Of a stretch of 64,000 nucleotides of DNA, positions 8,698 to 41,866 are shown piece by piece; positions within the stretch are counted from its first letter, which is position 1, and every line of letters begins with the position of its first letter. Made by a program: the position numbers and the translations under genes. The notes beneath the pieces are model-generated. The model saw only the letters and a list, made by a program, of their open reading frames with translations. It was not told where the DNA came from and did no database searches. The DNA is from Pseudomonas frederiksbergensis (lineage in GTDB: Bacteria; Pseudomonadota; Gammaproteobacteria; Pseudomonadales; Pseudomonadaceae): the NCBI RefSeq assembly GCF_900105495.1, contig NZ_FNTF01000002.1, positions 4,580,501 through 4,644,500 of the forward strand, read 5' to 3'.

Positions 8698-8711
8698 CTC
8701 AGGAGCATCCA

Positions 8712-9014
8712 ATGAAACACACACTTGCACTATCCATCGCTGTAGCTTCGCTCGCCTCGCTCGCCGTCATCAGCCAGCCGGCTCACGCAAGCGAAACCCC
8801 ACCATCGGCCACTGCCAAGACCACCACGGGTGGCGGCAAGTGTGCCAGCGGTAAGTGCGGCACCGAGAAGATCTACGGCCAGACCAAACTCAGTCAGGAC
8901 CCACAGGGTCGCCTGGTCCGCACACGTGACGGTAAATGTGGCCTGACCGCTGAAGGTTACGACATCGCCGAAACGACTCAGAAGAAGCTCTCCGAAGGGG
9001 TTTGTGGCCAATGA
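8712..9014 (+). CDS. HvfA/bufferin-type Cys-rich RiPP precursor
   Basis: A 100-residue peptide with a signal peptide (cleavage after QPAHA, residue 26) and a mature part of about 74 residues holding exactly four cysteines: KCASGKCG, DGKCG and EGVCG. The repeated (S/D/E)GxCG units match the EGKCG-type motifs that MNIO enzymes convert to oxazolone/thioamide groups in HvfA and to thiooxazoles in bufferins, and these products bind copper. The last unit has Val in place of Lys. The start has AGGAGCATCCA before ATG. The gene overlaps the MNIO gene by ATGA. Copper sequestration in the periplasm is the expected role; that is family knowledge, not shown here. Confidence 0.85.
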   Translation: MKHTLALSIAVASLASLAVISQPAHASETPPSATAKTTTGGGKCASGKCGTEKIYGQTKLSQDPQGRLVRTRDGKCGLTAEGYDIAETTQKKLSEGVCGQ

Positions 9015-14474: not shown

Positions 14475-14516
14475 AGCATCTCACTCATTTTATGAATCGA
14501 AGTGTATTTGTGACCG

Positions 14517-15161: not shown

Positions 15162-15170
15162 CCTGGAGTC

Positions 15171-16400: not shown

Positions 16401-16535
16401 AAATTCTGCACTCTCAACACGAATAAGGATTGAAGATCAAACTCTTTACTTTATTTCCCAAGCGCTGCCACTGGCCCGCTCTACGCGTCCGTCGTTCGTC
16501 AGATAGTTAATACAATAGGCCAAGTTGGTCGCTGA

Positions 16536-16559
16536 CCTCAGGCTCGCAAGCCTGAGGCA
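16536..16559 (-). repeat. Strong hairpin between TDT exporter and sorA genes
   Basis: CCTCAGGCT pairs with AGCCTGAGG over a 4-nt loop (9-bp stem). There is no T-tract in either direction. It may stabilise or process the transcript between the exporter gene and sorA. Confidence 0.4.
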
Positions 16560-16575
16560 GCTATTGATGAATTGA

Positions 16576-17733: not shown

Positions 17734-17819
17734 GACAATCTTCCTGATGTATGTGTGACTGAGCGTGCGCTCATTTTTTGGGTGAGTTGCTTATCGCAAT
17801 TTCGCAGCTCGGCTAATAA

Positions 17820-17857
17820 CAGCCTCTTCGGGCAACGCTCGACCTTTGAAGAGGCTG
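17820..17857 (-). terminator. Hairpin after the cio operon
   Basis: A perfect 10-bp stem, CAGCCTCTTC with GAAGAGGCTG, encloses an 18-nt loop and is followed on the minus strand by TTATT. It lies 22 bp beyond the stop of the DUF2474 peptide gene, the right place for the operon's end. The T-tract is short. Confidence 0.5.
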
Positions 17858-17878
17858 TATCTGGTATCAGAATGTTGG

Positions 17879-18040
17879 TCAGTGCGACTTCATCCCCGCC
17901 GCCTGCATGAACAGTCGGATCAGCATGGCAAACACACCCAGTGCCGCCACACTGCCCACATAAATCACCAGCATCCAGCCCAACTTCTGCCGCAGTAGTG
18001 GCTTATGCTCGGCCGGTTCAACAATTGTCTTACTGTCCAT
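17879..18040 (-). CDS. DUF2474 small oxidase-associated peptide
   Basis: A 53-residue single-pass membrane peptide (MDSKTIVEPAEHKPLLRQKL and on) with one membrane segment at about residues 22-44 (GWMLVIYVGSVAALGVFAML). It starts 15 bp after cioB with GGAGGGCTGCTCCA-type spacing. DUF2474 peptides regularly follow cioAB in Pseudomonas and are thought to be a CydX-like third subunit. It is too short for usual gene finders, but the operon position makes it secure. Confidence 0.8.
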   Translation of the reverse strand: MDSKTIVEPAEHKPLLRQKLGWMLVIYVGSVAALGVFAMLIRLFMQAAGMKSH

Positions 18041-18055
18041 TGGAGCAGCCCTCCG

Positions 18056-19066
18056 CTAGTGGTAACCGTCTTCGTGGGTGACCTTGCCGCGGAACACGTA
18101 ATAGCTCCAGAAGCTGTAACCCAAGATGAACGGGATAGTGAACAAGGTACCCAGCAGGAGAAAGCCCTGGCTTTGCGGTGGGGCAGCAGCCTCCCAAATT
18201 GAAATGGACGGTGGCACGATGTTCGGCCACAGACTGATGCCCAAACCGCTGTAGCCGAGGAATACCAGCAGTAGGGTCAGCAGGAACGGCGTGTAGTGTG
18301 CGTTACGCGCCACCGCCTTGAGCAGGCACCAGGTTGTGACCAGCACCAGGATCGGCACCGGCAGGAACCAGAACAGGTTCGGCAGGGTGAACCAGCGAGC
18401 GGCAATTTCGGGATGGGTCAGTGGCGTCCAGATACTGACGATAGCAATTACCGCCAGCAGCACGAGAACCAGCGGCCGAGCCAGGTTATGCATCAGTTCT
18501 TGCAACTTGCCTTCGGTTTTCATGATCAGCCAGGTACAACCCAGCAAGGCATACGCAACGATCAAGGCCACGCCACAGAACAGGCTGAAGGGTGTCAACC
18601 AGTCCAGCTCACCACCAGCGAACTGTCGATTGACCACCGGTATACCATCGATGAACGCCCCCAGCGCCACGCCCTGGAAGAATGTGGCGACCAGCGAACC
18701 ACCGATAAAAGCTTTGTCCCAGATATGACGTTTATGTTCTTTGGCCTTGAAGCGGAACTCAAAGGCCACGCCCCGGAATATGAGCCCGAACAGCATCAGA
18801 ATCAGCGGCAGATATAACGCCGACAACACCACCGAGTAAGCCAACGGGAAGGCACCGAGCAGCGCCGCACCACCCAGTACGAGCCAGGTCTCGTTACCAT
18901 CCCAGATGGGGGCGACTGTGTTCATCATCACGTCACGATCGGTCTTGCCCGGAATGAACGGAAAGAGAATGCCAATCCCCAGGTCGAAGCCGTCCATGAT
19001 CACGTACATCATGATGCCGAAAATGATGACCACGGCCCAAATCAATGGAAGATCAATACCCATCAC
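18056..19066 (-). CDS. cioB: Cyanide-insensitive bd-type oxidase subunit II
   Basis: A 336-residue membrane protein with the CydB pattern at the start (IWAVVIIFGIMMYVIMDGFD, LGIGILFPF), then NTVAPIWDGNETWLVLGGAA. It supports subunit I and completes the quinol oxidase. Two ATG codons stand at the start (19066 and 19063). It follows cioA directly, with no gap between the cioA stop and its ATG. Confidence 0.9.
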   Translation of the reverse strand: MMGIDLPLIWAVVIIFGIMMYVIMDGFDLGIGILFPFIPGKTDRDVMMNTVAPIWDGNETWLVLGGAALLGAFPLAYSVVLSALYLPLILMLFGLIFRGVAFEFRFKAKEHKRHIWDKAFIGGSLVATFFQGVALGAFIDGIPVVNRQFAGGELDWLTPFSLFCGVALIVAYALLGCTWLIMKTEGKLQELMHNLARPLVLVLLAVIAIVSIWTPLTHPEIAARWFTLPNLFWFLPVPILVLVTTWCLLKAVARNAHYTPFLLTLLLVFLGYSGLGISLWPNIVPPSISIWEAAAPPQSQGFLLLGTLFTIPFILGYSFWSYYVFRGKVTHEDGYH

Positions 19067-20485
19067 TCAGTTCCCCTTCTTGTTCGGGCTAAGGCGGTGA
19101 TCGCCTTCAACGGTGTCGTCGGTAGCGGAAAGACCAAGACCTGCGTGGCTGATTTCTGCGCCTTCGTTGGTCTTCGGACCCTTGCGCACCAGACGCATCA
19201 TGTAGCCGAAACCGGTACCGAACAGCGCGAAATACACCACCACAAACAGCACCAGGGTAAGGCTCATCTGTGCCACGCTGTGGTTTGAGGAAGCATCGGC
19301 AGTACGCAACAGGCCATACACCACCCACGGTTGACGACCGATTTCAGTGGTGAGCCAACCGGCGAGAATCGCGATCAAACCGGACGGCCCCATGAACATC
19401 GCCAAGTACAGAAAGGGGCGGCACTGGTAAAGCGTTCCGCGTTTGCGTAACCACAAGCTCCACAATCCGGTGAAGAGCATCAACATGCCGAGGCCAGCCA
19501 TGACCCGGAACGACCAGAACACAATGGTCGAGTTTGGGCGATCTTCAGGGGCAAACGATTTCAGTGCGGGAACCTGCTTCTCCAGGCTATGGGTCAATAT
19601 CAGACTGCCCAGGTACGGAATTTCGACGGTGTATCCAGTCTTCTCGGCTTTCATGTCCGGCCAGCCGAACAGAATCAGCGGCGTCGGTTCGTTACCACGG
19701 TTTTGCCAATGACCTTCAATCGCAGCGATTTTTGCCGGCTGATGTTCCAGCGTATTCAAGCCGTGCATATCACCGACCATGATCTGAATGGGCATGACGA
19801 TCAACGCCATCCACATGGCCATCGACAGCATGGTGCGGATCGCCGGGTTATCACGGCCGCGCAACAGATGCCAGGCAGCCGATGAACCGACAAAGAAGGC
19901 GGTGGCAACAAACGCAGCGATCGACATGTGTACGAGGCGGTACGGTAACGACGGGTTGAAAATGACCGCCAGCCAATCCGTCGGAATCACCTGCCCGTTA
20001 ACGACTTCGAAGCCATTAGGGGTTTGCATCCAGCTATTGGACGCCAAAATCCAGAAGGTCGAAATCAGCGTTCCAAGAGACACCATTACGGTCGAGAAAA
20101 AATGCAGTCTGCGCCCGACGCGGCCCCAGCCGAACAACATTACGCCCAGAAAGCCCGCCTCAAGAAAGAAGGCTGTAAGCACCTCATAGGTAAGCAGAGT
20201 CCCGGTGACGGGACCGGCGAAGTCCGAAAAACGACTCCAGTTGGTACCGAACTGATAGGCCATCACAATGCCGGACACCACGCCCATGCCGAAGTTGACC
20301 GCAAAAATCTTCGACCAGAAGTGGTATAGATCACGGTAGGTGTCGTTACGAGTCTTGAGCCACAACCCCTCAAGAACGGCCAGGTAACCAGCCAAACCGA
20401 CGGTGATAGCCGGGAACAGAATATGGAACGACACCGTAAATGCGAACTGCATTCGCGCCAAGTCTAATGCCTGTAGGTTAAACAT
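19067..20485 (-). CDS. cioA: Cyanide-insensitive bd-type oxidase subunit I
   Basis: A 472-residue heme-bearing subunit. It shows conserved features of cytochrome bd: LARMQFAFTVSFHILFPAIT (a heme ligand His in FHILFP), NFGMGVVSGIVMAYQFGTNW, the b558 region LVHMSIAAF, and GWLTTEIGRQPWVVYGLLRT. The Q-loop is short, as in the CIO branch, not the long E. coli type. It oxidises ubiquinol with oxygen and tolerates cyanide and sulfide. Placed next to a sulfite-oxidising set, it could keep respiration going when heme-copper oxidases are inhibited. Confidence 0.9.
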   Translation of the reverse strand: MFNLQALDLARMQFAFTVSFHILFPAITVGLAGYLAVLEGLWLKTRNDTYRDLYHFWSKIFAVNFGMGVVSGIVMAYQFGTNWSRFSDFAGPVTGTLLTYEVLTAFFLEAGFLGVMLFGWGRVGRRLHFFSTVMVSLGTLISTFWILASNSWMQTPNGFEVVNGQVIPTDWLAVIFNPSLPYRLVHMSIAAFVATAFFVGSSAAWHLLRGRDNPAIRTMLSMAMWMALIVMPIQIMVGDMHGLNTLEHQPAKIAAIEGHWQNRGNEPTPLILFGWPDMKAEKTGYTVEIPYLGSLILTHSLEKQVPALKSFAPEDRPNSTIVFWSFRVMAGLGMLMLFTGLWSLWLRKRGTLYQCRPFLYLAMFMGPSGLIAILAGWLTTEIGRQPWVVYGLLRTADASSNHSVAQMSLTLVLFVVVYFALFGTGFGYMMRLVRKGPKTNEGAEISHAGLGLSATDDTVEGDHRLSPNKKGN

Positions 20486-23267: not shown

Positions 23268-25868
23268 TTATTTTTTTGGAGGGGGGGTGCAAGTGACCTT
23301 AAACTGACCAATGCCCGTTGGCGGCAGGTTGTATTGTTTTAAGTCCAGGTTCTCGCTACACCAAAGTTTGTCGTTAACCTTGATGACCAGTCGGAACTTG
23401 TCTGGCACACCGGTCAGGAACACCCTGCCCTTGTCTGCAATCATCGCGTCGCTCAGCAAGTTGCCTTCAAGATCGAATACTTGGGCTTGTGCTGCAAACG
23501 GTGCGGGCGTGCCCTGCTGTGTGGTGACGCTGGCCAGAAGGCGACGACCGTTATGGGTCTGAAAATTAGCCAACACGAAAGCGCCGCGGTTAGGCGTGAC
23601 TTCCTGGACCAGTCCAGGAATATCGACATCATCGGATAACGAGTCAGTGTTGAGCGACACTCGGTTATTACGATAAGGCTGGGCCGACGAAATAATCGTG
23701 TAGCCACTGCTGTTGGTCTTAACGCCGCTTCGGGTCAACACGCCGACATCGGCGGCACCGGGTGTGGCCACGATAATATTCGTTTCCCCCAGCGGCTGAG
23801 AAAACATCACAGTATCCCGCGTGGCGACGACAGCCCCTTCTACGCCATAGTCCAATTGCCGATTGTTTTTATCGCTGTTATACGAACCGTGCCAAATTCC
23901 ATTGGCACCGTTGTAACGTGCGGCAACCGAACCTCCCACGACCCGTTCATCATTACTGACCTGCTGGTTGACGCCCAAGGTGTAGGACAGCGCATCGTCC
24001 TGGAACTTGGAGCCGCTGAAGGTGGCTGAACGAGTGGCTCCGCCGTTGGAATCCTGGTTGCTGCTGAAACCAATACGGCTGCTGCTGCCAGGCTGTCCCA
24101 GAGGAATACTCACGCTCAAGGACAGGCTGCGGGTGTCGTCACCGCTGCTGCTGTTCTGCGCCAACCCCAGATTGTAAGAGGCATAGCCCACGCTGAAGCT
24201 GTAACCCAGCTGCAACGACGTGTTGCTCTTGGCCATATTCCAGTAATCCGTCTTGGTCAGGCTGGCGAACATGCCACCGTAACCGCCCAATTGCTGCGAT
24301 ACGCTGGCAGTGAAGCTGCTTTTCATATGGCCTTGCAGGTACGGCGAAAATGCCCGGCTGCTGTCCAGGGCCTCATCGACATAGGGGGTTAACGAACGAT
24401 TACTGCGCGCATTGACCGCCTCATTGAAGCTGTAATAACCGCTCGTGGAATAGCGATAGCCAATCAGGCTGAAGTTGGTATCTGTCAGGTCTAACGTTTT
24501 GGAATAGCGAAAACGATAGGACTGACCCGAAAGCGTTTTAGCCTCAACCCCCATGTCATCGCTCACCGCGTGGGTCACGTCGACGGAAATCGCACCGACG
24601 CCGGCAAAATCGTAAGCAAAACCCAATAGCGATGACTTGTATTGATCACTGACTATGGCGCCGCCAAACAGCGTCGTGCCGTCGCTCAATCCGCGGCGCA
24701 ACGTGCCCAGCACAAAGGCTGGTTTTTCCTGACTGATCGCCCCATCAGCCGGTCGATACTGCCCTGCCGTCAACGAGTAGCTTTGCTGGCCTTCACGCAT
24801 CATGTAGGGCACCGAAGAAAACGACTGGGTGTAGACCTGACGCTCGCCATTGGGGCCTTCGACACTCACCTCGATATCGCCGTTACTGGAGGTTGAATAA
24901 AGATCCTTTAACGCGAACGGACCGGAAGGCACCCATTGTTCACTGATCACGTAACCGCGCTGGCGTAACGTGACCAATGATCGACCGTTTGCCACGCCAC
25001 GCACGACGGGCGCGAAGTTGCGCGAGTCTTCAGGCAGCATGTCCAGGTCCGACTCGATGCCGACACCGCGAAAGGAAATGGAGTCGAATAGTTCGCTATC
25101 GGTAGAGCTCTCGCCGATTGTGGCAATGGCCATCATGTCGCCCAGATCGCGCTGGGCATAGGTATCTACCGATTTCCAATTGCCCTCGACGTTGGTGCTT
25201 TTCTGCCAGGTCGAAAAATTACGCAAGCGCCAGGCACCGGTATTGATACCGCTGCGCAAACTACCGAACTGTGACTGACGATTGCCGTATGACGCTTCGT
25301 AATGGCTACCGGAAAAATTATAGTTGGAGAAGGCTACTTGCTCCCCGTCACTCCAGCTTTTGCGCCTGATTGCAAACGGAACGCTGCCGATGTACGCCTG
25401 CGGAATCTGCAGATCCAGATGCTGCTTATGAAAGTCGTAGCTATAGGTGATATCAGCCAAATCACTGTTGAAGTAGACACATTGGTCGGCACTGATATCG
25501 GCCTGGGCAAGCCGACTCGATTCAACCCCCAACGCTGCCAGGTCATCAACACTGAAACAGGGGAACAATCCCGTGGGAGTCGGTTTCTGATCCGCTGCTT
25601 CCTGAACGAATCGCAAGTCACGTTGCTCTACCTTCCGATTATCGACGGTCACATTGACACGGTACACGCCCGGCAATTGCCCCTTGCTCATGGTCTTGAC
25701 TTGCTCGGCCACTTCGGTCGAAGTGTTACCTCCGCCAATTTCCAAAAATGAAGCATCGAAGCTGTAATCCGCGTAAACCACTGGGGTTGTCAGTCCTGAA
25801 GTAATCAGGGCAAAGCAACTCCAATACTTTGGTAGGCGCGCATAAGCACACATGCGCAAACGAGGCAT
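23268..25868 (-). CDS. Outer membrane fimbrial usher
   Basis: An 866-residue FimD/PapC-type usher. After a signal peptide (about 1-33) come the N-terminal periplasmic domain with YSFDASFLEIGGG, a 24-strand beta-barrel containing a plug domain (PFALKDLYSTSSNGDIEVSV), and two C-terminal periplasmic domains ending in the conserved Cys pair region (KLWCSENLDL, FKVTC). It takes chaperone-subunit complexes and exports the fibre. Length and domain order are normal. It is the third gene of the operon. Confidence 0.9.
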   Translation of the reverse strand: MPRLRMCAYARLPKYWSCFALITSGLTTPVVYADYSFDASFLEIGGGNTSTEVAEQVKTMSKGQLPGVYRVNVTVDNRKVEQRDLRFVQEAADQKPTPTGLFPCFSVDDLAALGVESSRLAQADISADQCVYFNSDLADITYSYDFHKQHLDLQIPQAYIGSVPFAIRRKSWSDGEQVAFSNYNFSGSHYEASYGNRQSQFGSLRSGINTGAWRLRNFSTWQKSTNVEGNWKSVDTYAQRDLGDMMAIATIGESSTDSELFDSISFRGVGIESDLDMLPEDSRNFAPVVRGVANGRSLVTLRQRGYVISEQWVPSGPFALKDLYSTSSNGDIEVSVEGPNGERQVYTQSFSSVPYMMREGQQSYSLTAGQYRPADGAISQEKPAFVLGTLRRGLSDGTTLFGGAIVSDQYKSSLLGFAYDFAGVGAISVDVTHAVSDDMGVEAKTLSGQSYRFRYSKTLDLTDTNFSLIGYRYSTSGYYSFNEAVNARSNRSLTPYVDEALDSSRAFSPYLQGHMKSSFTASVSQQLGGYGGMFASLTKTDYWNMAKSNTSLQLGYSFSVGYASYNLGLAQNSSSGDDTRSLSLSVSIPLGQPGSSSRIGFSSNQDSNGGATRSATFSGSKFQDDALSYTLGVNQQVSNDERVVGGSVAARYNGANGIWHGSYNSDKNNRQLDYGVEGAVVATRDTVMFSQPLGETNIIVATPGAADVGVLTRSGVKTNSSGYTIISSAQPYRNNRVSLNTDSLSDDVDIPGLVQEVTPNRGAFVLANFQTHNGRRLLASVTTQQGTPAPFAAQAQVFDLEGNLLSDAMIADKGRVFLTGVPDKFRLVIKVNDKLWCSENLDLKQYNLPPTGIGQFKVTCTPPPKK

Positions 25869-25905
25869 GAGAGAGTCCTTTCTTTAAAATTTAGAACCTT
25901 AATGC

Positions 25906-26601
25906 TCAGTGAACTGTAACGGGGGCTGCCTTGACGGTGCTGCCGTATTCATTTATGTAACTCAGTACAATTGTATCGCCCGTTTTAAGTGCTTGTGCGG
26001 ACTGCAGCGTACTAACTGGCTTAATGACCTCAGGCAAATCTTTGTTAATAGTGTTATTAACCAATACCTCACTCACCACCACATTAAAACCTGAGCGATT
26101 ACGAACACTAAGTTTGCCATCATCAACGCTCCACTGCAGTTGATCAACAGCATCCTTCAGTGACCCCTTCAAGTTTTCCGGGCGATAAAAAAGCTTGATC
26201 GTTGTTTTCAATGCAATCTGCAGTACGTTCTGACTGTGCTGCTCGGCGCTCACCGCCGGGATAGCCTTGACGTTGACAAAGAACAGACTCTCCCTGTCGC
26301 CAGGCAAGTTCTGTACGTTGGTCGCGATTATTCGCAGAATGTTCTGACTTTTCGCATCGAGCCTGAACAGCGGCGGAGTAACAATAAACTCATCGGCACT
26401 GGTATCGCGATTATCATAAGGACTTATCCAAGACTGAACCAAATAAGGAGAATCATCATCGGTGTTGGCCAGAGAGAGATTCGCCTCTTTGTCTTTACCT
26501 TGATAAACCACGCGTGTGGTGCCCACGTTGACGCCCGCCTGAAGCTGGGGCAACCAAAAACACGCCGCCAGAGCCGTAAAGGCCGCAACTTTTAAGCGCA
26601 T
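25906..26601 (-). CDS. Periplasmic fimbrial chaperone
   Basis: A 231-residue PapD-type chaperone with two Ig-like domains. It has a signal peptide (about 1-22), the start GVNVGTTRVVYQGKDKEANLS with the conserved Arg that anchors the subunit's C-terminus, the F1-G1 donor strand region NVLQIALKTTIKLFYRP, and the second-domain ending YINEYGSTV. It holds subunits until the usher takes them. It follows the major pilin gene by 66 bp. Confidence 0.9.
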   Translation of the reverse strand: MRLKVAAFTALAACFWLPQLQAGVNVGTTRVVYQGKDKEANLSLANTDDDSPYLVQSWISPYDNRDTSADEFIVTPPLFRLDAKSQNILRIIATNVQNLPGDRESLFFVNVKAIPAVSAEQHSQNVLQIALKTTIKLFYRPENLKGSLKDAVDQLQWSVDDGKLSVRNRSGFNVVVSEVLVNNTINKDLPEVIKPVSTLQSAQALKTGDTIVLSYINEYGSTVKAAPVTVH

Positions 26602-32896: not shown

Positions 32897-35800
32897 ATGA
32901 CTCATCCCAATGTGCTACTGCACAAACTGGCCAGTAGCTCGCTGCGCATGAATAAAGGTGTCGTGATGCTGTGCGGTCTGGCATCAGTGTTGGTTGGTCT
33001 CAGCGTCTGGGGCCTGAATCGTATGGTCGCCGAACAGCGTGATGCGGTGCATTATCACTTCGCCCGACTGATGGAGAACATTGGCGAACAAGACACTTTC
33101 CTCAGCGCTATCGCCAAGCAGAGTGCCAAGGGACTCACGCTGAATACGCAGCGGATGAGCATGTCTGTTCAAGAACCTATGCCCGAGCATGGCAGCGGGA
33201 TTTACCGGGCTCAAGAGCTATCTTTTTCCCTACCCTTCAGCGTCAAGATCAACCCGGCAGCGATTGAAACGGCAGAGCGCGCCAAGGTCTTCGCGCTGGG
33301 CGCGCACCTGGCCAGTTACTACAGCGCATTCTGGTCGGCCTCGCACTTTCAGTCGCCCCAGGTATTTCTATTCAACGTCCCGGACAACTTTGATATCGCC
33401 GTGCCCGCCGCCGGGCAATTACGCGGCGCCGGGCAGATCCAGGGGGTCAGCTTCCAGCAAGTACTGACGCACGTATTGCAGCGCCTGCAAGAGAAAAATC
33501 CGCAACCATTGGACAGCCGGGTTCACTGGGTTCGCTATGGCGCTGAAGTGGATAAAGACGTCGCTCCGAGGGTACTGGCTTACATCAATGTCGACCTGCC
33601 GGCAAGCCAACTGGACATTGACGGTGCCAGTCCGTGGGTAGTCGTGGCATCGCTGTTGAACCTGAGCCAGATCAACGATATCGAGCGCATCATGAAATGG
33701 TCGATCTACGACCGCTTCACACTCACCGCGCCCAACGGCAATCTGTTGGTCGGCACCGAGCCGCCCGACCGGACGTTGAGCGAAGGGCTGAATGTTCGCC
33801 TCGACGGTTTGGTGTTCAAGATTTCCAATGAAGGCCCGCAACGCTGGGCAGCGGTTTACGTAGTCGGCTTCAAGAGCTTTATCGATTACGCATGGTGGCC
33901 ACTGCTCGGCGTTTTGACGTTAATGATTGCCACTGTTGGTGGTGGCCGGGCCTTCAACCGGTGGTACAAAACCCGCGTGGTGCTGCCCGCGCATCAAGCG
34001 CATCAGAGCATTGCCGAAAGCGAGGCATTCAGCCGCGCGGTGATCGACGCTGCGCCCACCGGGCTGTGTGTGGTGCATTGCAGTGATCATCAAATATTGC
34101 TGGAAAACCAGCGTATTCAGGAGTGGCATCAAAGCGACCGACTGATCGCGGTCCTCAACCAGAAACACCCGCTGACCAGCCCCGGGCAGACCGACCTCGA
34201 AATCGATGGGCGCCATCTGCACGCGGGGGTGGTGGGCGCTCGCTACCATGGCGAGGATGTCTGGATCTGCGCATTCCATGACGTGACCCGGCATATAAAT
34301 GATGCCGCGGCACTGGAGCAGGCATTGCGTGCGGCCGATTCGGCGAACGAGGCGAAAACGCGCTTTCTGGCGACCATGAGTCATGAAATCCGCACGCCGT
34401 TGTACGGCGTTCTAGGCACGCTCGAACTGTTGGGCCTGACCGATCTCAAGCCGCGTCAACAGGAATACTTGCGCACCATTCATCGTTCGTCGGCCACCCT
34501 GTTTCAGCTGATCAGCGACGTACTCGATGTATCGAAAATCGAATCCGGGCAGATGACCATTGAAGCTCAGGACTTCTGCCCGCTGGAGCTTACCGAAGAT
34601 ACTTTGCGCGCCTACAGTGCGTTCGCCGAGGCCAAAGGCCTGCAGCTTTATGCCTGCATTGATTCGTCGGTCCCGGACCGGGTGCAAGGCGATCCGCTGC
34701 GCATCCGGCAGATTCTCAATAATCTGCTGAGCAATGCGATCAAGTTCACCGACAACGGCCGCGTGGTATTGCGACTACGGCTGCTTGATCAAAACGCCGG
34801 TGGCGCCAACCTGCAATGGCAGGTCAGCGACTCCGGAATCGGCATTTCCCAAGCGCAGCAAACGCAGCTGTTCGATCCGTTCTATCAAGTGCGCGATGCG
34901 TCCAGCGAAGCCGGCGCCGGCCTCGGTCTGGCGATTTGCTGGTGGCTGTGTGAACTGATGGCCGGACAATTGAAAGTGGTCAGCGAACCCGGACTGGGTA
35001 GTAGTTTCTCTCTGCATTTGCATGTGGCTTGCGCAGAAGGCCAATTGAGCGACTGCCCTGAGTTCGCGCCTGATGCGCCGCCGATTTACGTACAGGCACC
35101 GGCGCCCGAACTGGCACAGCATGTCTGCAAATGGTTCAACCGACTGGGCCAGGAAACCCGCATCCTCGGGCCGGACGCAAAACACTTGCCGGGCTCTTCA
35201 GCGCTGCTGCTGGATGTGCTGCCGTCCTCGAAACTTGCCTGGGCCGGCCCGCGCGTCATCGCCACGACCGCGGGAGCAAACCCGGCGGAATACACGGCCG
35301 AGGGTTGGTCGGTCGATGCGCATGACATCCGGGCGATGGCTTGGGCGGTCAGTTTCGCGCAACAAGGTGCGGATAAACGAAGCCGAACGGCGCTCACGGA
35401 GCAGGTCCGACGCCTGGATCTGAACATTCTGATTGCCGAAGACAACCCGATCAATCGGGCAATCATCAAAGAGCAACTTGAGGCGCTGGGCTGCACAGTG
35501 GTCGCCACGGCCAACGGCGAACAAGCCCTGAACCAATGGCTGCCAGGCTTGTTCGACATGGTGCTGACCGACGTCAACATGCCCGTCATGAATGGCTATG
35601 AATTGGCCAGGGCGCTGCGCAGGAACGATGCTGATTTGCCGATCATCGGCGTCACGGCCAATGCCCTGCGCGATGAAGGCGAACATTGTGCGGCGGTGGG
35701 CATGAACGCTTGGCTCGTCAAGCCATTGAACCTGCACATGCTGCGCACGCAATTGCTCAAACATTGCAAAGTTGCCGATCCATTACCTGCTGTTGATCCC

Positions 35801-36115
35801 GGCCAGCGTGCACCTGATGTTCCTCGCACTGATCAGCCGCAGTTTTCGCCGAAAATGCGTGCGTTGTTCTTCAGCACCATGCAACAGGACATTGGCAAGG
35901 TCACGGCCTCACTTCAAGACAACGACGCGGCTGCACTTGGTCGCCATCTGCACAGCATGGCCGGAGCTTTGGGCGCCGTGCGGGCCGACAGTTTGGCGGA
36001 CGAGTGCGTCAGCCTCGAGAGTCGCCTGGATGGTCGGCCTCTTACTCCGGCTTTGGCCACCGAGATCGGCGCTATGCTGGGGCGACTGGCAGCAATGCTC
36101 GACGCGCTGGCGTAA
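32897..36115 (+). CDS. Hybrid sensor histidine kinase with Hpt, RocS-like
   Basis: A 1072-residue inner-membrane kinase. Membrane segments at about 21-41 and 330-350 enclose a periplasmic sensor. HisKA has MSHEIRTPLYGVLG (His about 496), HATPase has GAGLGLAICWWL, and the receiver has Asp in MVLTDVNMPVMNG. A C-terminal Hpt domain has His about 1018 in LHSMAGALG. The relay is thus complete in one chain (His-Asp-His), ending on the response regulators. The first kinase shares most of the core but lacks the Hpt domain. Sensor domains differ between the two, so they probably read different signals. Confidence 0.85.
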   Translation: MTHPNVLLHKLASSSLRMNKGVVMLCGLASVLVGLSVWGLNRMVAEQRDAVHYHFARLMENIGEQDTFLSAIAKQSAKGLTLNTQRMSMSVQEPMPEHGSGIYRAQELSFSLPFSVKINPAAIETAERAKVFALGAHLASYYSAFWSASHFQSPQVFLFNVPDNFDIAVPAAGQLRGAGQIQGVSFQQVLTHVLQRLQEKNPQPLDSRVHWVRYGAEVDKDVAPRVLAYINVDLPASQLDIDGASPWVVVASLLNLSQINDIERIMKWSIYDRFTLTAPNGNLLVGTEPPDRTLSEGLNVRLDGLVFKISNEGPQRWAAVYVVGFKSFIDYAWWPLLGVLTLMIATVGGGRAFNRWYKTRVVLPAHQAHQSIAESEAFSRAVIDAAPTGLCVVHCSDHQILLENQRIQEWHQSDRLIAVLNQKHPLTSPGQTDLEIDGRHLHAGVVGARYHGEDVWICAFHDVTRHINDAAALEQALRAADSANEAKTRFLATMSHEIRTPLYGVLGTLELLGLTDLKPRQQEYLRTIHRSSATLFQLISDVLDVSKIESGQMTIEAQDFCPLELTEDTLRAYSAFAEAKGLQLYACIDSSVPDRVQGDPLRIRQILNNLLSNAIKFTDNGRVVLRLRLLDQNAGGANLQWQVSDSGIGISQAQQTQLFDPFYQVRDASSEAGAGLGLAICWWLCELMAGQLKVVSEPGLGSSFSLHLHVACAEGQLSDCPEFAPDAPPIYVQAPAPELAQHVCKWFNRLGQETRILGPDAKHLPGSSALLLDVLPSSKLAWAGPRVIATTAGANPAEYTAEGWSVDAHDIRAMAWAVSFAQQGADKRSRTALTEQVRRLDLNILIAEDNPINRAIIKEQLEALGCTVVATANGEQALNQWLPGLFDMVLTDVNMPVMNGYELARALRRNDADLPIIGVTANALRDEGEHCAAVGMNAWLVKPLNLHMLRTQLLKHCKVADPLPAVDPGQRAPDVPRTDQPQFSPKMRALFFSTMQQDIGKVTASLQDNDAAALGRHLHSMAGALGAVRADSLADECVSLESRLDGRPLTPALATEIGAMLGRLAAMLDALA

Positions 36116-36153
36116 TCCGTATGCATTCAACAATAAATCAGGGAAAGCCGAAC

Positions 36154-36801
36154 ATGGCAAAACTCAACGTCGTGATCGCCGATGATCACCCCATCGTGTT
36201 ATTGGGTGTACGTGAGCTGATAGAGCGCGATGAACGCTTTAGCGTCGTGGGTGAAGCGATGTGCTCGAACGAGCTGATCGAGTTGCTCAAGCGTCAATCC
36301 GTTGATCTTGTGATCACTGACTTCAACATGCCCGCTGATTCACCTTATGGAGATGGCCTGAAGCTGGTGGAATACCTGCTCAGGCATTTTGCCGATGTGA
36401 AAGTCCTGGTCCTGACCATGATCTCCAGCCCGTTGATCCTGACGCGACTACATGAATTGGGCGTCGTTGGGGTCATTCAGAAAAGCCAGTTGCATGACGA
36501 GATTCAATTGGCATTGATGGCCGTGGCGCAAGGTCGTTCGTTCAACAGCGCCAAGCCGGCGCCGACGTGTGTGAAGGAGCCCAATGTAGCGCTGGATGAA
36601 AGGCTCTCTCGGCTGTCGCCCAAGGAGTTCGAAATATTGCGCATGTTTGTCGCCGGGCAGAGCGTAACCACAATTGCCCGCAACCTTTCCCGAAGTGCAA
36701 AAACCATCAGCACGCAAAAGATTGCGGCCATGCGCAAGCTGGATGTTGCGAGTGATCAGGATCTGCTGACGTATTGCCTGGAAAACAACGTGTTTAGCTG
36801 A
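36154..36801 (+). CDS. RocA-like LuxR-family response regulator
   Basis: A 215-residue protein starting at ATG 36154 (AGGGAAAGCCGAAC upstream). The receiver domain has DD in VIADDHPIV and the phospho-Asp in LVITDFNMP. A C-terminal LuxR helix-turn-helix (about 150-210) has LSPKEFEILRMFVAGQSVTT and IARNLSRSAKTISTQK. This family (BvgA, FimZ, RcsB, RocA1) controls fimbriae; RocA1 activates cupC in P. aeruginosa. It is the natural candidate to bind the AGAATCGTC-type boxes near the pilin and kinase genes. Confidence 0.85.
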   Translation: MAKLNVVIADDHPIVLLGVRELIERDERFSVVGEAMCSNELIELLKRQSVDLVITDFNMPADSPYGDGLKLVEYLLRHFADVKVLVLTMISSPLILTRLHELGVVGVIQKSQLHDEIQLALMAVAQGRSFNSAKPAPTCVKEPNVALDERLSRLSPKEFEILRMFVAGQSVTTIARNLSRSAKTISTQKIAAMRKLDVASDQDLLTYCLENNVFS

Positions 36802-36827: not shown

Positions 36828-36860
36828 AAAAAAAGCGTTCACCTGGATAAGCGTGAACGC
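36828..36860 (-). terminator. Terminator of the sulfite-oxidase/cbb3 operon
   Basis: On the minus strand GCGTTCAC pairs with GTGAACGC around a 10-nt loop and is followed by seven T. It lies 34 bp after the last gene of the minus-strand operon. Confidence 0.85.
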
Positions 36861-36893: not shown

Positions 36894-37094
36894 TCAAACA
36901 GTCGCTTTCTTCGCAGCGCTTTCGTAACCGAGTAAGGCGACGTCACGCCGTTGCGCCCGTTCGTAGGTCTGCTCTCGCTTGAGCATCTGGTATTTGGGCA
37001 CCTCCGACCAATTCCTCATTGCCTTGCTGGACAGCCAGGCGATTGTGCAGGCAAAGACAATCAACGTCATGGTGATGACCATAAAAGCGAACAT
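36894..37094 (-). CDS. Small membrane subunit of the cbb3-like operon
   Basis: A 66-residue single-pass protein (MFAFMVITMTLIVFACTIAW, membrane segment about 2-22) with a charged tail. AGGAATAACCC precedes ATG. It is separated by 3 bp from the cytochrome gene. The size and place recall CcoQ or CcoS, but no conserved motif is visible, so it is named only by context. Confidence 0.6.
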   Translation of the reverse strand: MFAFMVITMTLIVFACTIAWLSSKAMRNWSEVPKYQMLKREQTYERAQRRDVALLGYESAAKKATV

Positions 37095-37097
37095 GGG

Positions 37098-38360
37098 TTA
37101 TTCCTGAGCAGAAGGTTGATAAAGAGAACGCAAGTAACGCACCAGACTGTGGCGTTGTTGATCGGTCAAGACTTCCTCCCATGGTGGCATGGCGGTGCCG
37201 GGGATGCCGTTGCGCAGGACCATTTCCAGATAGTCAGGGTTGCCTTGCTTGAGCTGAAAGTTAGCCGGGCGCGGAGCCAGGCTGCGAGCTGCCGGGCCAT
37301 CGCCCTGCCCAGTTGCGCCGTGACAGCTGCTGCAGTTTTTCTCGAAGAGTGTGGCGGTCTGCACAGCGCTTTCGCCGATAGCGGTCTCTGGTAAGGCTTG
37401 CGAGGTGTGCAGGCTCTGAACGTACACCGTCAACGCGGCAAGCGTTGAGTTGTCGAGATCGCGCCACGCCGGCATGGAGCTGCCATAGCGACCATTCCAC
37501 AGTGCATCTGCTATGCGCCCCGAGGTGAAGCTGGCGGCGCGCAAATCTGCCGGTCGCGGGAGAAGCGATGCGGCTCCTGGTCCGTCACCGGCCCCCGTCA
37601 CACCGTGACACGCCGTACAATTTTGCTCGAAGGCGGTTTTCCCGGCGGCCAAAGCGACCGAGTAATCTTCCGGATTGTCTGGCAGAGAGAATTGCGGCAC
37701 CGCTGCGTCTAGCCGCGCTTGTGCCGAGATCGCCTGGCGCCGCGCCGCCAGCGTGGATGTGTCCATGCTGTCGGCATGTCCCGCGGCCATTGGCGAAGAC
37801 GCTGGCGCCGTTTCATCGTGGTAACCGGAGACAATCCGTGGCCGCCCCAACGCTTGTAGATAAGCCACCAGACTCACCGCATCGGCTGTGGGTTTTGCAG
37901 CATCACCGTCAAACAACCACGGATACCCTGGCATCACCGAGTCGCCTACGACGAAGCGCGGGTTGAACAAGTGGGTAAGCTGCCAATCGTTACTGCGCAC
38001 ACCCGACTCGCGCGCCAGATCCGGGCCGATACGCCGCGTGCCCCACAGCTGCGGATAATCAAAACGGGTTTCCCAGGCCTGCGTTGGCGCGCCCCAACGG
38101 GCAACGTCCTCAGCAACAAAACGGACCTGTTGAGTATGGCAATAACCGCAACCCTCACGGCCATATACAGTTCTACCCCGCTCTTCCTGTGCCGTGTAAT
38201 CGGCCATGTCAGCGGGTACGCGCGCGTCAATTTCCTTTTGCAGTTCCTGACCGGGCAAGATCCCCAGCAAGTAGAACGACAACGCAAAAAAACCAATGCC
38301 GGCAACAAAAATGACCAGGTAAACGCTGTTGAAAACACGGTGTCTATTAGCCGTTTTCAT
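37098..38360 (-). CDS. CcoO-like cytochrome fused to two cytochrome c domains
   Basis: A 420-residue membrane-anchored protein. The first part is CcoO-like: a membrane helix (about 12-33), CGYCH at 71-75, and the tail RIGPDLARESG and VMPGYPWLF with the axial Met. It is followed by two class I cytochrome c domains with CTACH (248-252) and CSSCH (343-347). Each has an axial-Met-type segment (SSMPAWR, AMPPWEE). Standard CcoO is about 200 residues with one heme and CcoP has two hemes, so this chain combines the heme content of both. It should feed electrons to the catalytic subunit. The gene ends 3 bp before the small membrane subunit. Confidence 0.8.
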   Translation of the reverse strand: MKTANRHRVFNSVYLVIFVAGIGFFALSFYLLGILPGQELQKEIDARVPADMADYTAQEERGRTVYGREGCGYCHTQQVRFVAEDVARWGAPTQAWETRFDYPQLWGTRRIGPDLARESGVRSNDWQLTHLFNPRFVVGDSVMPGYPWLFDGDAAKPTADAVSLVAYLQALGRPRIVSGYHDETAPASSPMAAGHADSMDTSTLAARRQAISAQARLDAAVPQFSLPDNPEDYSVALAAGKTAFEQNCTACHGVTGAGDGPGAASLLPRPADLRAASFTSGRIADALWNGRYGSSMPAWRDLDNSTLAALTVYVQSLHTSQALPETAIGESAVQTATLFEKNCSSCHGATGQGDGPAARSLAPRPANFQLKQGNPDYLEMVLRNGIPGTAMPPWEEVLTDQQRHSLVRYLRSLYQPSAQE

Positions 38361-38363
38361 GGA

Positions 38364-39812
38364 TCAGGCTCCTGCCATTGCACTGTGGAAGCGAGGGTCT
38401 GCAACGTTGCACGAAGCCGATCGCGGCCCCGTGATCAGCCCGAAGAAAAACAATACAAAACCTGCCAGCAGCGGCACTGCCGATATGTCTCGCAGCCACC
38501 AGTAGGCAAGTGATGCGCGAACCGAATCCATCCACGGCGCGGGGCTCGCCCAAAGGTGCGCCTGAACCAGCCCTCCGGCCGTCAACGTGACGAACATCAG
38601 CAACAGGCCAACGGTAATCAGCCAGAAGGCCCAGTTCATGGCGGCGTCGTTGTAGCGCGCATGCGGTATCCGCTGCCACGCATGGGCAATGCCGCCGGCA
38701 GCGATGAAGGTGGCGAAACCGAGCATCGCAAGATGCGAGTGGCCGATGACCCAATCCGAGAAGTGCGTCAAGCGATTGACTGGCATCAAAGCCTGGAAAG
38801 CGCCTTGCAGGCTGACCAGCAGGTAGAAAATGATGCCGGTCCAGACGAACCGCAACGGCACGTCACTGGCGACTTTCGCCGCCTGCCCACGCAGCGACAT
38901 CAACAGGTTGAATACCACAAGGATTACGTCCATCCCCAGGTACACCGAGGCAATGATCGCCGCCTTCTGCGCATCCATCGGCACTGCCGAATAGACGTAA
39001 TGGTGGGTGCCATTCAAGGGATAGAAGAAAAACAGAAACCAGAATCCGATCATCGAAAGAAAATGGCTGTAGATCGGTCGCTGGGTGGTCGCCGGGATAA
39101 TGTAATAGGCAATCGCCAACACGAATGGGGTGACAAACAGCCCGACCGCATCGTGAATCCATAGTCCGCTGAAGGCCGCTCCCTGCGCCCCCGGTATAAA
39201 GGCCGGGACGAAGTTCCCGACTGGATAGGCCAGCAAACTGAAGACTGCGCCGCCTACCAGGTACCAAACGGAAATATAGACCCCCCCGGACTGACGCTTG
39301 AGCACGAAAGGTCCGGCGAACTGCACGCAGATCAGCAGCAAGCCGAGCACCGCGAACAGATCGATGAGCATCGGGAACTCTGCCCATTCCAGCGACTGCA
39401 CCGCGAGCCACTGGTTATCCAGGCCCAGCGAAATCAACGCCCATCCCGGCAAGAGCACACCGAAGTTCCAGAGCAGGAAAATCCCCCAGCCAAGCTTGCG
39501 GCTGTACACCGGACGATCAGCCAGTCGAGGCACCATGTGGTAGCAGAACGCGAAAAATGCGTTACCCAACCAGCCGAAGAAGATGCCTTGGGTGTGATCG
39601 AATCGCAGCCTGCCCCACGATAATGCCGCGTGGTTACCCAGCAACTCCGGCAGGGTCAGTTTGAGCGCGACCAGCAGGCCGGCAATGGCGGACAAAAATA
39701 GCGTGATGACCGCCGCGTAACTGTGCGCCTTGATCAGGTCGTAGTCGGTGCGCGGTAGATATTCCAGCGGTCGTTGAGCAATTCCGGTCGATGCCGAATC
39801 AAGACTTCTCAT
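38364..39812 (-). CDS. cbb3-like heme-copper oxidase subunit I
   Basis: A 482-residue protein with about twelve membrane segments. Heme-copper ligands are recognisable: the low-spin heme His region RFDHTQGIFFGW and CYHMVPRL, copper-site histidines in LWIHDAVGLFV and NGTHHYVYSAVP, and the high-spin heme region VIGHSHLAMLGF. The YY pair in AYYIIP is where the cbb3 His-Tyr link sits. It resembles CcoN but is divergent. It overlaps the cytochrome gene before it by 4 bp. Its oxygen affinity and proton pumping cannot be judged here. Confidence 0.8.
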   Translation of the reverse strand: MRSLDSASTGIAQRPLEYLPRTDYDLIKAHSYAAVITLFLSAIAGLLVALKLTLPELLGNHAALSWGRLRFDHTQGIFFGWLGNAFFAFCYHMVPRLADRPVYSRKLGWGIFLLWNFGVLLPGWALISLGLDNQWLAVQSLEWAEFPMLIDLFAVLGLLLICVQFAGPFVLKRQSGGVYISVWYLVGGAVFSLLAYPVGNFVPAFIPGAQGAAFSGLWIHDAVGLFVTPFVLAIAYYIIPATTQRPIYSHFLSMIGFWFLFFFYPLNGTHHYVYSAVPMDAQKAAIIASVYLGMDVILVVFNLLMSLRGQAAKVASDVPLRFVWTGIIFYLLVSLQGAFQALMPVNRLTHFSDWVIGHSHLAMLGFATFIAAGGIAHAWQRIPHARYNDAAMNWAFWLITVGLLLMFVTLTAGGLVQAHLWASPAPWMDSVRASLAYWWLRDISAVPLLAGFVLFFFGLITGPRSASCNVADPRFHSAMAGA

Positions 39813-40300
39813 TTATTTTCTTCTCGTGCATGACTCAATATCCAGGCGGCCACGCCTAGTTGTGCATCGGGTGTCAGAGCAATGGCTGAAGGTCCCGGGG
39901 TATACCCGTCCCATCCCGGACGCGGGTGGCTAATGGCGGTATTCATCAGCGCCAAGGCATCGGCACCCATGGGATCTGCGCCAACATGTTGCTGGTAGCG
40001 CGCCACAATCGCTTGCCAGGACGGCCCTTCCAGCCGTTGCTGCGCGTCATGGCAACCGGCACAACGCTGGCGAACCACCACTTTGCCGGTTTGGATCAGA
40101 GCAGACGCGCGGCCCGGGTCGAACGCCGTCCCTTGGGGCACGCCGGGCAAGGTGTCGCCACGCGGGCTAATGGTCGAACTCGCGGGCATGCGCACCACGC
40201 TCCAGGCGATAACGGTACCCAGACTCAACACGCCGACCAGCATGACCAGCGCCGCGCGTGAGATGCTCGAGTGTCTGGCGTTTGTTTCAACATCACTCAT
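39809..40300 (-). CDS. Membrane-anchored monoheme cytochrome c
   Basis: A 163-residue protein with an N-terminal membrane anchor (about 16-36) and one heme site CAGCH (80-84). It lacks a close match to CcoP. The position between SorB and the oxidase subunit suggests that it bridges electrons between them. Overlaps of 4 bp at both ends show tight coupling. Confidence 0.8.
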   Translation of the reverse strand: MSDVETNARHSSISRAALVMLVGVLSLGTVIAWSVVRMPASSTISPRGDTLPGVPQGTAFDPGRASALIQTGKVVVRQRCAGCHDAQQRLEGPSWQAIVARYQQHVGADPMGADALALMNTAISHPRPGWDGYTPGPSAIALTPDAQLGVAAWILSHAREENK

Positions 40301-40638
40301 GGCGCGGGCTTACCTTGCAGGAACATTAGGTAATCGAGGATCGGCTCAACCGCCGCATCGGGAATCGGCGCGCCGTATTCGTCGCGCATCTTCGCCACTT
40401 CCGCCGCCCAGGTTTTGCGGGGATAGGTAGGCTGAATGACGACGTAGCGTGGCGAATGACAAATCACGCATTGCTGAAGAAATTCTGCACGTCCCGGCCC
40501 GTCCAGCAGGTACGGCTCGTTGTGCGGCACGGTAATGCTATGTACCGCCTGGCCGAAATTCACATCCGGCGACTCTTGCGCGTGGAGCGTCGGACTGAGT
40601 GCGCATGCCAATAGGCACGGCAGATAATGGCGGGCCAT
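40297..40638 (-). CDS. sorB: SorB-like monoheme cytochrome c
   Basis: A 113-residue periplasmic cytochrome with a signal peptide (about 1-20) and one heme site CVICH (57-61), followed by the SorB-like pattern YPRKTWAAEVAKMRDEYGAP and an ending LDYLMFLQG. It takes electrons from the SorA-type subunit, which is encoded 1 bp upstream. The N-terminal half of the diheme protein at 14517-15161 is homologous. Confidence 0.85.
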   Translation of the reverse strand: MARHYLPCLLACALSPTLHAQESPDVNFGQAVHSITVPHNEPYLLDGPGRAEFLQQCVICHSPRYVVIQPTYPRKTWAAEVAKMRDEYGAPIPDAAVEPILDYLMFLQGKPAP

Positions 40639-40639
40639 G

Positions 40640-41866
40640 TCAGACCACCATTCCGCTGGTGCTCTCGATCATGCGACGCGCAAAGCCGCCACGATTCCAC
40701 TGTGTGACCGGTTGCCCCTCGCCTGCGCGATTAGTCGCGCGAACCAGAAAGGTGTAACGACCCTTCTCGCGTGGCGTCCAAAGGTAACGCCAGCGCCGCC
40801 AGGAAAAGCGCCCGATCTCAGGATCCAGTAGTGCGTCGACCCAAGTGCGGCCGTTGTCCACCGACACCTCGACGCGGGCTATGCCGTCGCCGCCGTCATT
40901 GGCCAATCCTTCGAGCATCATCGGATGATTAAGCAACAACTGCTCTTCTGGCTCGGGGCGCACGAAAATCGAATGGGTAGCAAAGCGATTGATCGGAACG
41001 GTTTTCTTCGCCAGATTGCCCGGCTCTTCGTTGATTTCCGGGTTATCGGGAATGCGGTAGGCCACGTCCATCCAGATATTGCTCAAAGGCTTTTCGAGCA
41101 CCTCGATGTGTGCCAGCGATTTGATCCAGTACGTCGCGTACCAGCCCGGCACCACCAAGCGTAGCGGGAAGCCGTTGAGCATAGGTAACGGCTCACCATT
41201 CATGGCGTAAGCGATCATCACGTCACCGTCGACGGCATGATCGAACTTCAACGATTTGACTACTTTGGGTAGCCCCGGCATGGGCGACTCGTCCAGCCCG
41301 GAAAACGCCACTTCCACTGCGCCGGACTTGACCCCGGCACGCGCCAGCACATCTTTGAGCCGCACGCCTGTCCATTGCGCATTCCCCATCGCGCCGAATT
41401 GCCATTGGCTGCCAGGCGGTTGCGGACTGAACAAACTACGTGCGTTACCGGAGCATTGATTCATCGCCACCAACGTGACCGGATCGAAACCCTTGACCAG
41501 TTCTTCGAGAGTGAACGATTGCGGTTTGTCGACGAGGCCGTCGAGACGCAAACGGAAGGTTCGCGTATCTACTTCAGTCGGGTAACCAGACAAGTGCCAG
41601 CGCACAAAATGTGCCGAATTGGGTGTCAGGTCCTGACGAAAGAAATGCAGCGGGGTTTCCAGTTGCGGCGGTCGATCGGTGATCAGAATCATCCCGGTCT
41701 TTTCCGGGTAGCGCACCTGTTCCCTCGATGCAGTCTGGCCTGCAATGGCCGAGTCCGGCGAGCCCGAAAGCGCCTGCCTGGGCAGAAGGCTAACCAAACC
41801 GGCTCCGGTTGCAAGTCCGAGCAGGCGCCTGCGGTTGATTTTCAAAAAAGTGTCGTCTGTATTCAT
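40640..41866 (-). CDS. sorA: Sulfite dehydrogenase (SorA type), molybdopterin subunit 2
   Basis: A 408-residue sulfite-oxidase-family protein with a twin-arginine signal (NRRRLLGLATG, residues 11-21) and the Mo-ligand Cys138 in VAMNQCSGNARS. Same layout as 15171-16400 (GNAQWTGVRLKDVLARAGV, NGFPLRLVVPGWYATYWIKS, VEVSVDNGRTWV), but the two share only family-level similarity. It is the first gene of the six-gene operon that ends with the cbb3-like oxidase. It should oxidise sulfite in the periplasm and pass electrons to SorB. The substrate could be another sulfur compound. Confidence 0.85.
   Translation of the reverse strand: MNTDDTFLKINRRRLLGLATGAGLVSLLPRQALSGSPDSAIAGQTASREQVRYPEKTGMILITDRPPQLETPLHFFRQDLTPNSAHFVRWHLSGYPTEVDTRTFRLRLDGLVDKPQSFTLEELVKGFDPVTLVAMNQCSGNARSLFSPQPPGSQWQFGAMGNAQWTGVRLKDVLARAGVKSGAVEVAFSGLDESPMPGLPKVVKSLKFDHAVDGDVMIAYAMNGEPLPMLNGFPLRLVVPGWYATYWIKSLAHIEVLEKPLSNIWMDVAYRIPDNPEINEEPGNLAKKTVPINRFATHSIFVRPEPEEQLLLNHPMMLEGLANDGGDGIARVEVSVDNGRTWVDALLDPEIGRFSWRRWRYLWTPREKGRYTFLVRATNRAGEGQPVTQWNRGGFARRMIESTSGMVV

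Follow-up and report, generated by a model that had tools for sequence, protein, structure and literature searches.

A candidate sulfite-to-oxygen electron relay in Pseudomonas frederiksbergensis, encoded with a cbb3-like oxidase of a branch met beside sulfur dehydrogenases

Haem-copper oxidases are usually regarded as all-purpose electron sinks that draw on the cytochrome c pool. Does an oxidase that shares an operon with a sulfite dehydrogenase serve that pool, or this one donor? The question is raised by a 64,000-nucleotide stretch of Pseudomonas frederiksbergensis DNA (contig NZ_FNTF01000002.1, positions 4,580,501 to 4,644,500; hereafter the window), in which the initial annotation had recognized, at 36894..41866, a six-gene operon for a SorA-like sulfite dehydrogenase, a SorB-like cytochrome, a membrane cytochrome c, a CcoN-like oxidase subunit, a CcoO-like/c-type fusion and a small membrane protein. 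All six open reading frames are indeed present, on the minus strand. As judged from sequence, the SorAB-like enzyme and the cbb3-like oxidase would form a dedicated sulfite-to-oxygen electron relay, a reading to which we give a probability of about 0.7. The predicted system is also broader than the sulfite-only chain that had been proposed.

Donor and acceptor ends of the operon

The genes had been described as lying 1-4 bp apart or overlapping, and they do. Single-digit gaps separate SorA from SorB (1 bp), CcoN from the CcoO fusion (3 bp) and the fusion from the small protein (3 bp), while 4 bp overlaps join SorB to the membrane cytochrome c and the latter to CcoN. The one terminator said to end the operon was likewise found, as a hairpin and T run at 36860-36828. 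Read from the minus strand, a perfect 8-bp stem (GCGTTCAC/GTGAACGC) is followed by seven T; its fold (-13.8 kcal/mol, z -2.45) was equaled by 6 of 200 shuffles. The hairpin is absent from the list of our pattern scanner, probably because the scanner accepts only loops of 3-8. A sigma-70 scan gave no promoter-like site on the minus strand and a single site overall, on the plus strand, a count below that of the shuffles. The GC content of the operon is 0.59, against 0.563 for the whole window. A chance neighborhood of six genes was rejected, since order and spacing recur across phyla.

The donor side points to a sulfite dehydrogenase. The SorA-like protein matches PF00174 and PF03404, has Starkeya novella SorA (PDB 2blf_A, 360 bits) as its best match among solved structures, and carries near its N terminus a stretch, NRRRLLGL, that reads by eye as a twin-arginine-like signal. 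Six residues that line the Starkeya sulfite site (R55, H57, C104, R109, W231 and Y236, with numbers counted from the alignment of the window SorA to 2blf) all have equivalents in the window protein. They are also kept in the 18 oxidase-linked SorA rows (window included), one of which does not reach R55/H57. The SorB-like protein has one CxxCH motif and no Pfam match in the family scan, and its sole PDB match at E <= 0.001 is Starkeya SorB (2blf_B, 31 bits).

The acceptor side points to an oxidase of the cbb3 kind. The CcoN-like protein matches PF00115 and is 52-82% identical to its family relatives, compared with 25-30% to ordinary CcoN. The histidines of haem b, haem b3 and CuB and the active-site tyrosine are kept at 7/7 positions in the window protein, and the same residues (H60, H207, Y251, H257, H258, H345 and H347) recur in every labeled row of the family alignment, 17/17 from loci with SorA (Sor loci) and 53/53 from loci with the thiosulfate dehydrogenase TsdA (Tsd loci). 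Here H60 and H347 are presumed to ligate the low-spin haem, H345 the high-spin haem, and H207, H257 and H258 CuB, Y251 being the presumed active-site tyrosine of helix VII; the numbering is that of P. stutzeri CcoN, anchored on the GHNAVG motif. The alignment has 79 family rows, namely the window and 78 of 80 surveyed loci, with L007 (a copy of L008) and L066 (a short match) left out; nine rows from cut loci are unlabeled, and L019 is labeled Sor by a SorA fragment. The window CcoN retains three K-channel residues (T215, S240 and Y223), two of which, T215 and S240, are conserved throughout the labeled rows. A structure model of this subunit (mean predicted local distance difference test score 87) suggests the same fold, with template-modeling (TM) scores of 0.83-0.86 against cbb3 CcoN structures.

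The next subunit had been annotated as a CcoO-like/c-type fusion. This stands, with the refinement that a CcoP part is included: the protein has FixO (PF02433), PF13442 and PF00034 domains, PDB matches to cbb3 subunits II and III, and CxxCH motifs at 71, 248 and 343, for one CcoO haem and two CcoP-like haems. The predicted haem-c count of this one subunit equals that of a whole cbb3 complex. In 43 of the 80 loci (contig-cut loci counted in), CcoN and the CcoO fusion share one open frame, mostly of 800-960 amino acids. The small protein of 66 amino acids has no Pfam or NCBIfam match; tblastn found it in 26/80 loci (Sor 8/17, Tsd 15/53).

Sulfur dehydrogenases beside the oxidase in other genomes

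A survey of genomes for the same gene order had been suggested with the initial annotation; when it was run, the order recurred in other phyla. A single scan of GTDB species genomes with peptide patterns gave 132 relatives, the best 80 of which were kept, and each locus was typed by tblastn with the six window proteins plus TsdA, TsdB and other neighbors. Within 6 kb of CcoN, 70/80 loci carried a sulfur dehydrogenase: SorA in 17, TsdA or a TsdA-like protein in 52, and both in one (L020, where the SorA match is weak, at 131 bits). The 10 loci with neither (L010, L012, L019, L034, L039, L048, L074, L078, L080 and L084) all break off at a contig end, in each case on the flank that encodes the partner in the closest tree neighbors, and L019 holds a SorA fragment at its contig end. 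TsdA identity is direct for two proteins, in L025 and L031, which contain PF21342 (the SoxA-TsdA domain); the L025 protein scores 187-269 bits to solved TsdA/TsdBA. The other Tsd loci were assigned by tblastn to these two. Among NCBIfam models the TsdA-like proteins match only SoxA, always below cut-off.

Two sets of controls were compared. For ordinary ccoN, 74 of 100 genomes from the phylum gave matches, and from the better of these we took 20 loci in 20 genomes. With a threshold of E <= 1e-5 and about 6 kb covered, 0/20 had SorA or TsdA, one being cut right behind CcoN and two losing about 1 kb; one control had a weak TsdB-only match (42 bits). For ordinary sorA, matches occurred in 30 of 398 genomes and, with the window's own gene and an 83% relative excluded, 20 loci from 19 genomes were used; a CcoN match was found in 0/20. 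The contrast between 70/80 family loci and 0/20 ordinary ccoN loci corresponds to a Fisher p of about 6e-14, a value made too small by kinship among the loci. As a reading of sequence, the sulfite-to-oxygen chain proposed at the outset is thus supported, with a partner in 70/70 loci that are intact on the partner side against 0/20 controls. An oxidase specific to sulfite alone was rejected, TsdA being the partner in most relatives; the predicted branch is not sulfite-only. In other bacteria the same branch adjoins TsdA, the enzyme that turns thiosulfate into tetrathionate, so we regard the oxidase as a putative module for periplasmic sulfur-oxyanion dehydrogenases, the donor enzyme being swapped between lineages.

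The membrane cytochrome c follows the donor. Its PF00034 match is only just above cut-off, and homologs were detected by tblastn in 10/17 Sor loci and 0/53 Tsd loci, while 8/53 Tsd loci have TsdB in its place. Its occurrence in Sor loci only, together with TsdB in some Tsd loci, fits a donor-dependent adaptor, and in the window the protein is probably the shuttle between SorB and the oxidase. A precedent is cytochrome cy of R. capsulatus, described as a membrane-anchored electron donor to a cbb3 oxidase (PMC7876108).

We then placed the oxidase on a careful CcoN tree of 51 rows, namely 44 chosen of the 79 family rows and seven outsiders. The 44 family rows form one clade (support 100/98), apart from ordinary CcoN, and within it the types with TsdBA upstream, with TsdA downstream and with distant TsdA are one clade each. 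On this tree three changes of the Sor/Tsd label are needed, and 3-4 for Sor across the bootstrap range, but its deep forks have weak support, and no more than one change is forced when only the starred branches are counted. The donor enzyme has probably been swapped more than once, as far as these sequences indicate.

Comparison with known systems suggests that the parts are familiar and their combination is not. Starkeya SorAB (PDB 2blf) is alike in its Mo subunit, mono-haem cytochrome subunit, adjacent genes and catalytic residues; it differs in that ordinary sorA loci lack the CcoN match (20/20), and the S. novella locus has the reported order sigE-orf1-sorAB (PMC3797975). The SorT/SorU system of Sinorhizobium meliloti is also a sulfite dehydrogenase with a co-encoded cytochrome acceptor, and differs in that an oxidase is unmentioned in the accessible part of its account (PMC4760952); the window SorA scores 166 bits with the SorT model against 459 bits with the SorA model. 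The cbb3 oxidase CcoNOQP shares the CcoN fold, the metal ligands, one CcoO and two CcoP-like haems and a small single-span protein encoded last, and the subunit and haem list of one account gives the same haem complement (PMC7876108). It differs in the low CcoN identity already given, in the fusion of CcoO with CcoP here, in residue E323, which is Q here, and in its surroundings: the window-type oxidase has a sulfur dehydrogenase next to it in every locus of sufficient length to show one. TsdBA (PDB 4wqc, 5lo9) or TsdA adjoins the same oxidase in relatives, whereas the window has SorAB instead. A c4-type TsdB was earlier proposed to feed cbb3 oxidases, as a suggested partner and not as a gene of the same operon (PMC9237845). 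The fused C-type oxidases of NCBIfam PRK14485/PRK14486 likewise join CcoO to cytochrome c domains, but the window fusion reaches 154 bits against a PRK14486 cut-off of 447 and so falls outside that curated family. C-type oxidases of Melainabacteria have been noted, with a sulfur link unmentioned in the accessible part of that paper (PMC6349859). No sorAB-cco or tsdA-cco operon appeared in the literature searched by title and abstract start, and subscription journals or supplements may hold one. As far as these searches show, the components are of known kinds and their fixed, donor-swapping pairing is undescribed.

Proposed electron path and its rivals

In the relay that we favor, sulfite would be oxidized to sulfate at the SorA Mo center, and electrons would pass from there to the SorB haem and on to the membrane-anchored cytochrome c. 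This carrier would hand them on to the CcoO-CcoP fusion with its three haems; haem b would come next, and CcoN would reduce O2 to water at its haem b3-CuB site. Such a route would avoid both the quinone pool and the bc1 complex. The oxidase may also translocate protons, as the window CcoN retains residues of a K-type channel.

Several observations weigh against this reading. The SorA-like and SorB-like proteins score below the NCBIfam cut-offs for their families (459.5 vs. 600 and 71.5 vs. 93), as does the CcoN-like protein with TIGR00780 ccoN (188.9 bits vs. 583.15), which is why we class the window subunit I as putatively cbb3-like rather than as ccoN. Where cbb3 CcoN has E323, 78/79 family rows, the window among them, have Q, and F replaces the K-channel residue Y223 in 6/70 labeled rows. 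The membrane cytochrome c was undetected in 7/17 Sor loci and so is not obligatory everywhere. The host also has three ordinary ccoN genes and a second SorAB, and coupling through a shared cytochrome c pool is possible. As to the survey, the 80 loci are the best matches of one scan rather than a random sample, and they include near-copies (L007/L008 and L016/L018). The controls are all from Pseudomonadota while most family loci are from Acidobacteriota, and 10/53 TsdA-like proteins are distant (130-166 bits), the other 43/53 scoring at least 200 bits. As a separate observation on the near-copies, L007 (labeled Pseudomonas poae DSM 14936) and L008 (P. graminis DSM 11363) have identical SorA rows with the same match coordinates; one of the two labels may be wrong.

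The same electron path could serve sulfite detoxification rather than energy, O2 being a mere sink that keeps SorAB turning on sulfite from organosulfonates or the environment. We regard this tentatively as a possible, if not the favored, purpose. It would suit P. graminis (L008), in which genes for a SLAC1-type transporter and a LysR protein closely precede the operon, and it would suit the second SorAB of the window, which stands beside the same kinds of transporter and regulator genes. Against it, the kept K-channel residues of the window CcoN suggest an energy-conserving oxidase, and the TsdA-type relatives oxidize thiosulfate, a compound that is not particularly toxic.

It is unlikely, in our view, that the genes are co-regulated without being privately wired, SorAB feeding the general cytochrome c pool and the cbb3-like enzyme being an extra pool oxidase, co-expressed in response to a normal chain poisoned or loaded by sulfite. 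The host does have other oxidases, and known SorAB and SorT enzymes were assayed with, or reduced, separate cytochromes c (PMC4760952; PMC6527743). A general oxidase should, however, show other partners, and in the several phyla covered every locus intact on the partner side had a sulfur dehydrogenase next to the oxidase; in the Sor loci with a membrane-anchored cytochrome c, moreover, the carrier is encoded between the two enzymes.

Still less probable is a SorA branch that acts on another oxyanion or a sulfoxide, in a chain not meant for sulfite. A quick tree of 40 SorA rows places the 18 oxidase-linked rows outside the branch of 19 ordinary SorA (99% by the Shimodaira-Hasegawa-like approximate likelihood ratio test), and this position, like the score below cut-off, would allow another substrate; the six compared sulfite-site residues are all kept, sulfur genes surround many loci, and the alternative donor is a thiosulfate enzyme, all of which argue the other way. 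Least probable of all, and rejected as an identity, is a CcoN-like protein that reduces something other than O2, for instance nitric oxide as the related NorB enzymes do: the model is similar to cytochrome c-dependent nitric oxide reductase as well (TM score 0.74-0.79) and E323 is replaced, but Y251, the active-site tyrosine of O2 reductases that NorB lacks, is kept in 70/70 labeled rows, and sequence scores are far better to CcoN (130-146 bits) than to NorB (31 bits).

Surroundings, spread and meaning of the oxidase branch

The coordinates of the operon and of other features of the window are collected in Table 1.

Table 1. Features of the window, in window coordinates (aa, amino acids)
Feature	Position	Strand	Evidence or remark
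SorA-like periplasmic Mo sulfite dehydrogenase (predicted), 408 aa	40640..41866	-	PF00174/PF03404; 2blf_A 360 bits; site residues kept
SorB-like mono-haem cytochrome c, 113 aa	40297..40638	-	one CVICH; NCBIfam SorB 71.5 bits; 2blf_B 31 bits
Membrane-anchored cytochrome c, 163 aa	39809..40300	-	PF00034; one N-terminal transmembrane segment, 18-36; CAGCH, CxxCH at 80
CcoN-like haem-copper oxidase subunit I, 482 aa	38364..39812	-	PF00115; ligands and Tyr kept; model matches cbb3 CcoN
Fusion of CcoO to two CcoP-like cytochrome c domains, 420 aa	37098..38360	-	PF02433, PF13442, PF00034; one transmembrane segment; three CxxCH
Small single-span membrane protein, 66 aa	36894..37094	-	transmembrane segment 1-19; CcoQ-like by position only
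Rho-independent terminator of the operon	36828..36860	-	8-bp stem, seven T, -13.8 kcal/mol
Hybrid histidine kinase and response regulator	32897-36801	convergent with operon	best kinase model RcsC, below cut-off
Second SorA	15171-16400		NCBIfam 651.1, above cut-off
Second SorB-like protein	14517-15161		NCBIfam 96.6, above cut-off
SLAC1-type transporter of second SorAB locus	16576-17733		
bd-type oxidase pair of second SorAB locus	18056-20485		

The second SorAB, at 12240-20485, is an ordinary locus about 20 kb from the operon and also holds a DsbA-like gene and a LysR regulator, for which the best model is YeiE, below cut-off. In P. graminis (L008), a beta-propeller gene also lies just before SorA, and DNA further upstream of the operon is 77% identical to the bd-type oxidase genes of the window; the transporter and bd-oxidase DNA lies beside the second SorAB in the window and beside the cbb3-like operon in L008, where apparent IstA/IstB transposition genes, read from translations, follow downstream. 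DNA homologous to the kinase and regulator genes at 32897-36801 lies near the operon in P. spelaei (L006), where a chaperone-usher set, again read from translations, intervenes. Control of the operon by this pair was rejected, given that intervening set and the lack of a DNA match in L008; the pair may serve other genes. The chaperone-usher genes of L006 show 31% protein identity to the genes at 23268-26601 of the window, which we read as chaperone-usher genes too.

Sulfur genes recur around the relatives. In six Sor loci, all from Melainabacteria/Cyanobacteriota, a gene combining metallo-beta-lactamase (MBL) and rhodanese parts lies directly upstream of SorA; the two proteins scanned have an MBL fold and two rhodanese stretches, a build shared with persulfide dioxygenases, which make sulfite, and no NCBIfam model matched the MBL-rhodanese proteins above a cut-off. 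Over the whole fetched stretch, 48/53 Tsd loci had a DsrE-like, BLH-like, weakly TetH-like (f2) or sulfate/molybdate-binding-protein-like match, these matches not being individually checked. The TsdA-like gene of L069 has as its neighbor a gene (8626-9597) for an extracellular solute-binding protein, whose matches to ModA and sulfate-binding models fall below cut-off; the same type occurs throughout one Tsd branch and near TsdBA in several Pseudomonadota. No transporter genes were noticed with it, though no search aimed at them was made.

Members of the clade were found in Pseudomonadota, Acidobacteriota, Planctomycetota, Melainabacteria/Cyanobacteriota and one metagenome-assembled genome of Actinomycetota. 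Within the genus the family, at 82-100% identity, is present in 2/298 genomes; the phylum sample (E <= 1e-60) returned the same two among 398, plus two further matches of 34-35% that belong to another branch. Plasmids of Paraburkholderia fungorum, Acetobacter ascendens and Komagataeibacter xylinus carry two cytochrome c genes, CcoN, CcoO and the small protein, tightly spaced, with the two cytochrome c genes upstream of CcoN in the places of TsdB and TsdA; the latter two plasmids are typed mobilizable. This patchy presence and the plasmid-borne relatives suggest horizontal spread.

Fusion of CcoO to c domains recurs in a sister CcoN branch (L192, L193 and L189), which is 32-35% identical to the window protein, and in L193 CcoN is joined on as well. 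SCO, metallophosphoesterase and TauE/SafE genes neighbor L189, and L192 looks similar. A sulfur partner for this branch was not upheld: L192 and L193 gave no match to the SorA or TsdA queries, and the pairing rule is for this reason claimed for the inner clade only. In one locus of the sister branch, on a Phyllobacterium plasmid, soxYZ lies some 5 kb past the oxidase genes.

A bolder generalization, on which we consider the odds even, is that this cbb3-like clade is committed to sulfur: each copy would be wired to its own SorAB or TsdA in donor-specific sulfite:O2 or thiosulfate:O2 complexes that skip quinone and bc1, and would travel as mobile cassettes, also on plasmids. In our sample the oxidase branch was met only beside periplasmic sulfur dehydrogenases, suggesting that a single donor is privately wired to oxygen. 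The branch may serve as a sequence marker for respiration that burns sulfite or thiosulfate in Pseudomonas, Melainabacteria and soil Acidobacteriota; most of these are, to our knowledge, not familiar as sulfur oxidizers. With two unrelated donor enzymes beside the same oxidase, it would also offer a natural test of what fixes the choice of partner between a dehydrogenase and an oxidase.

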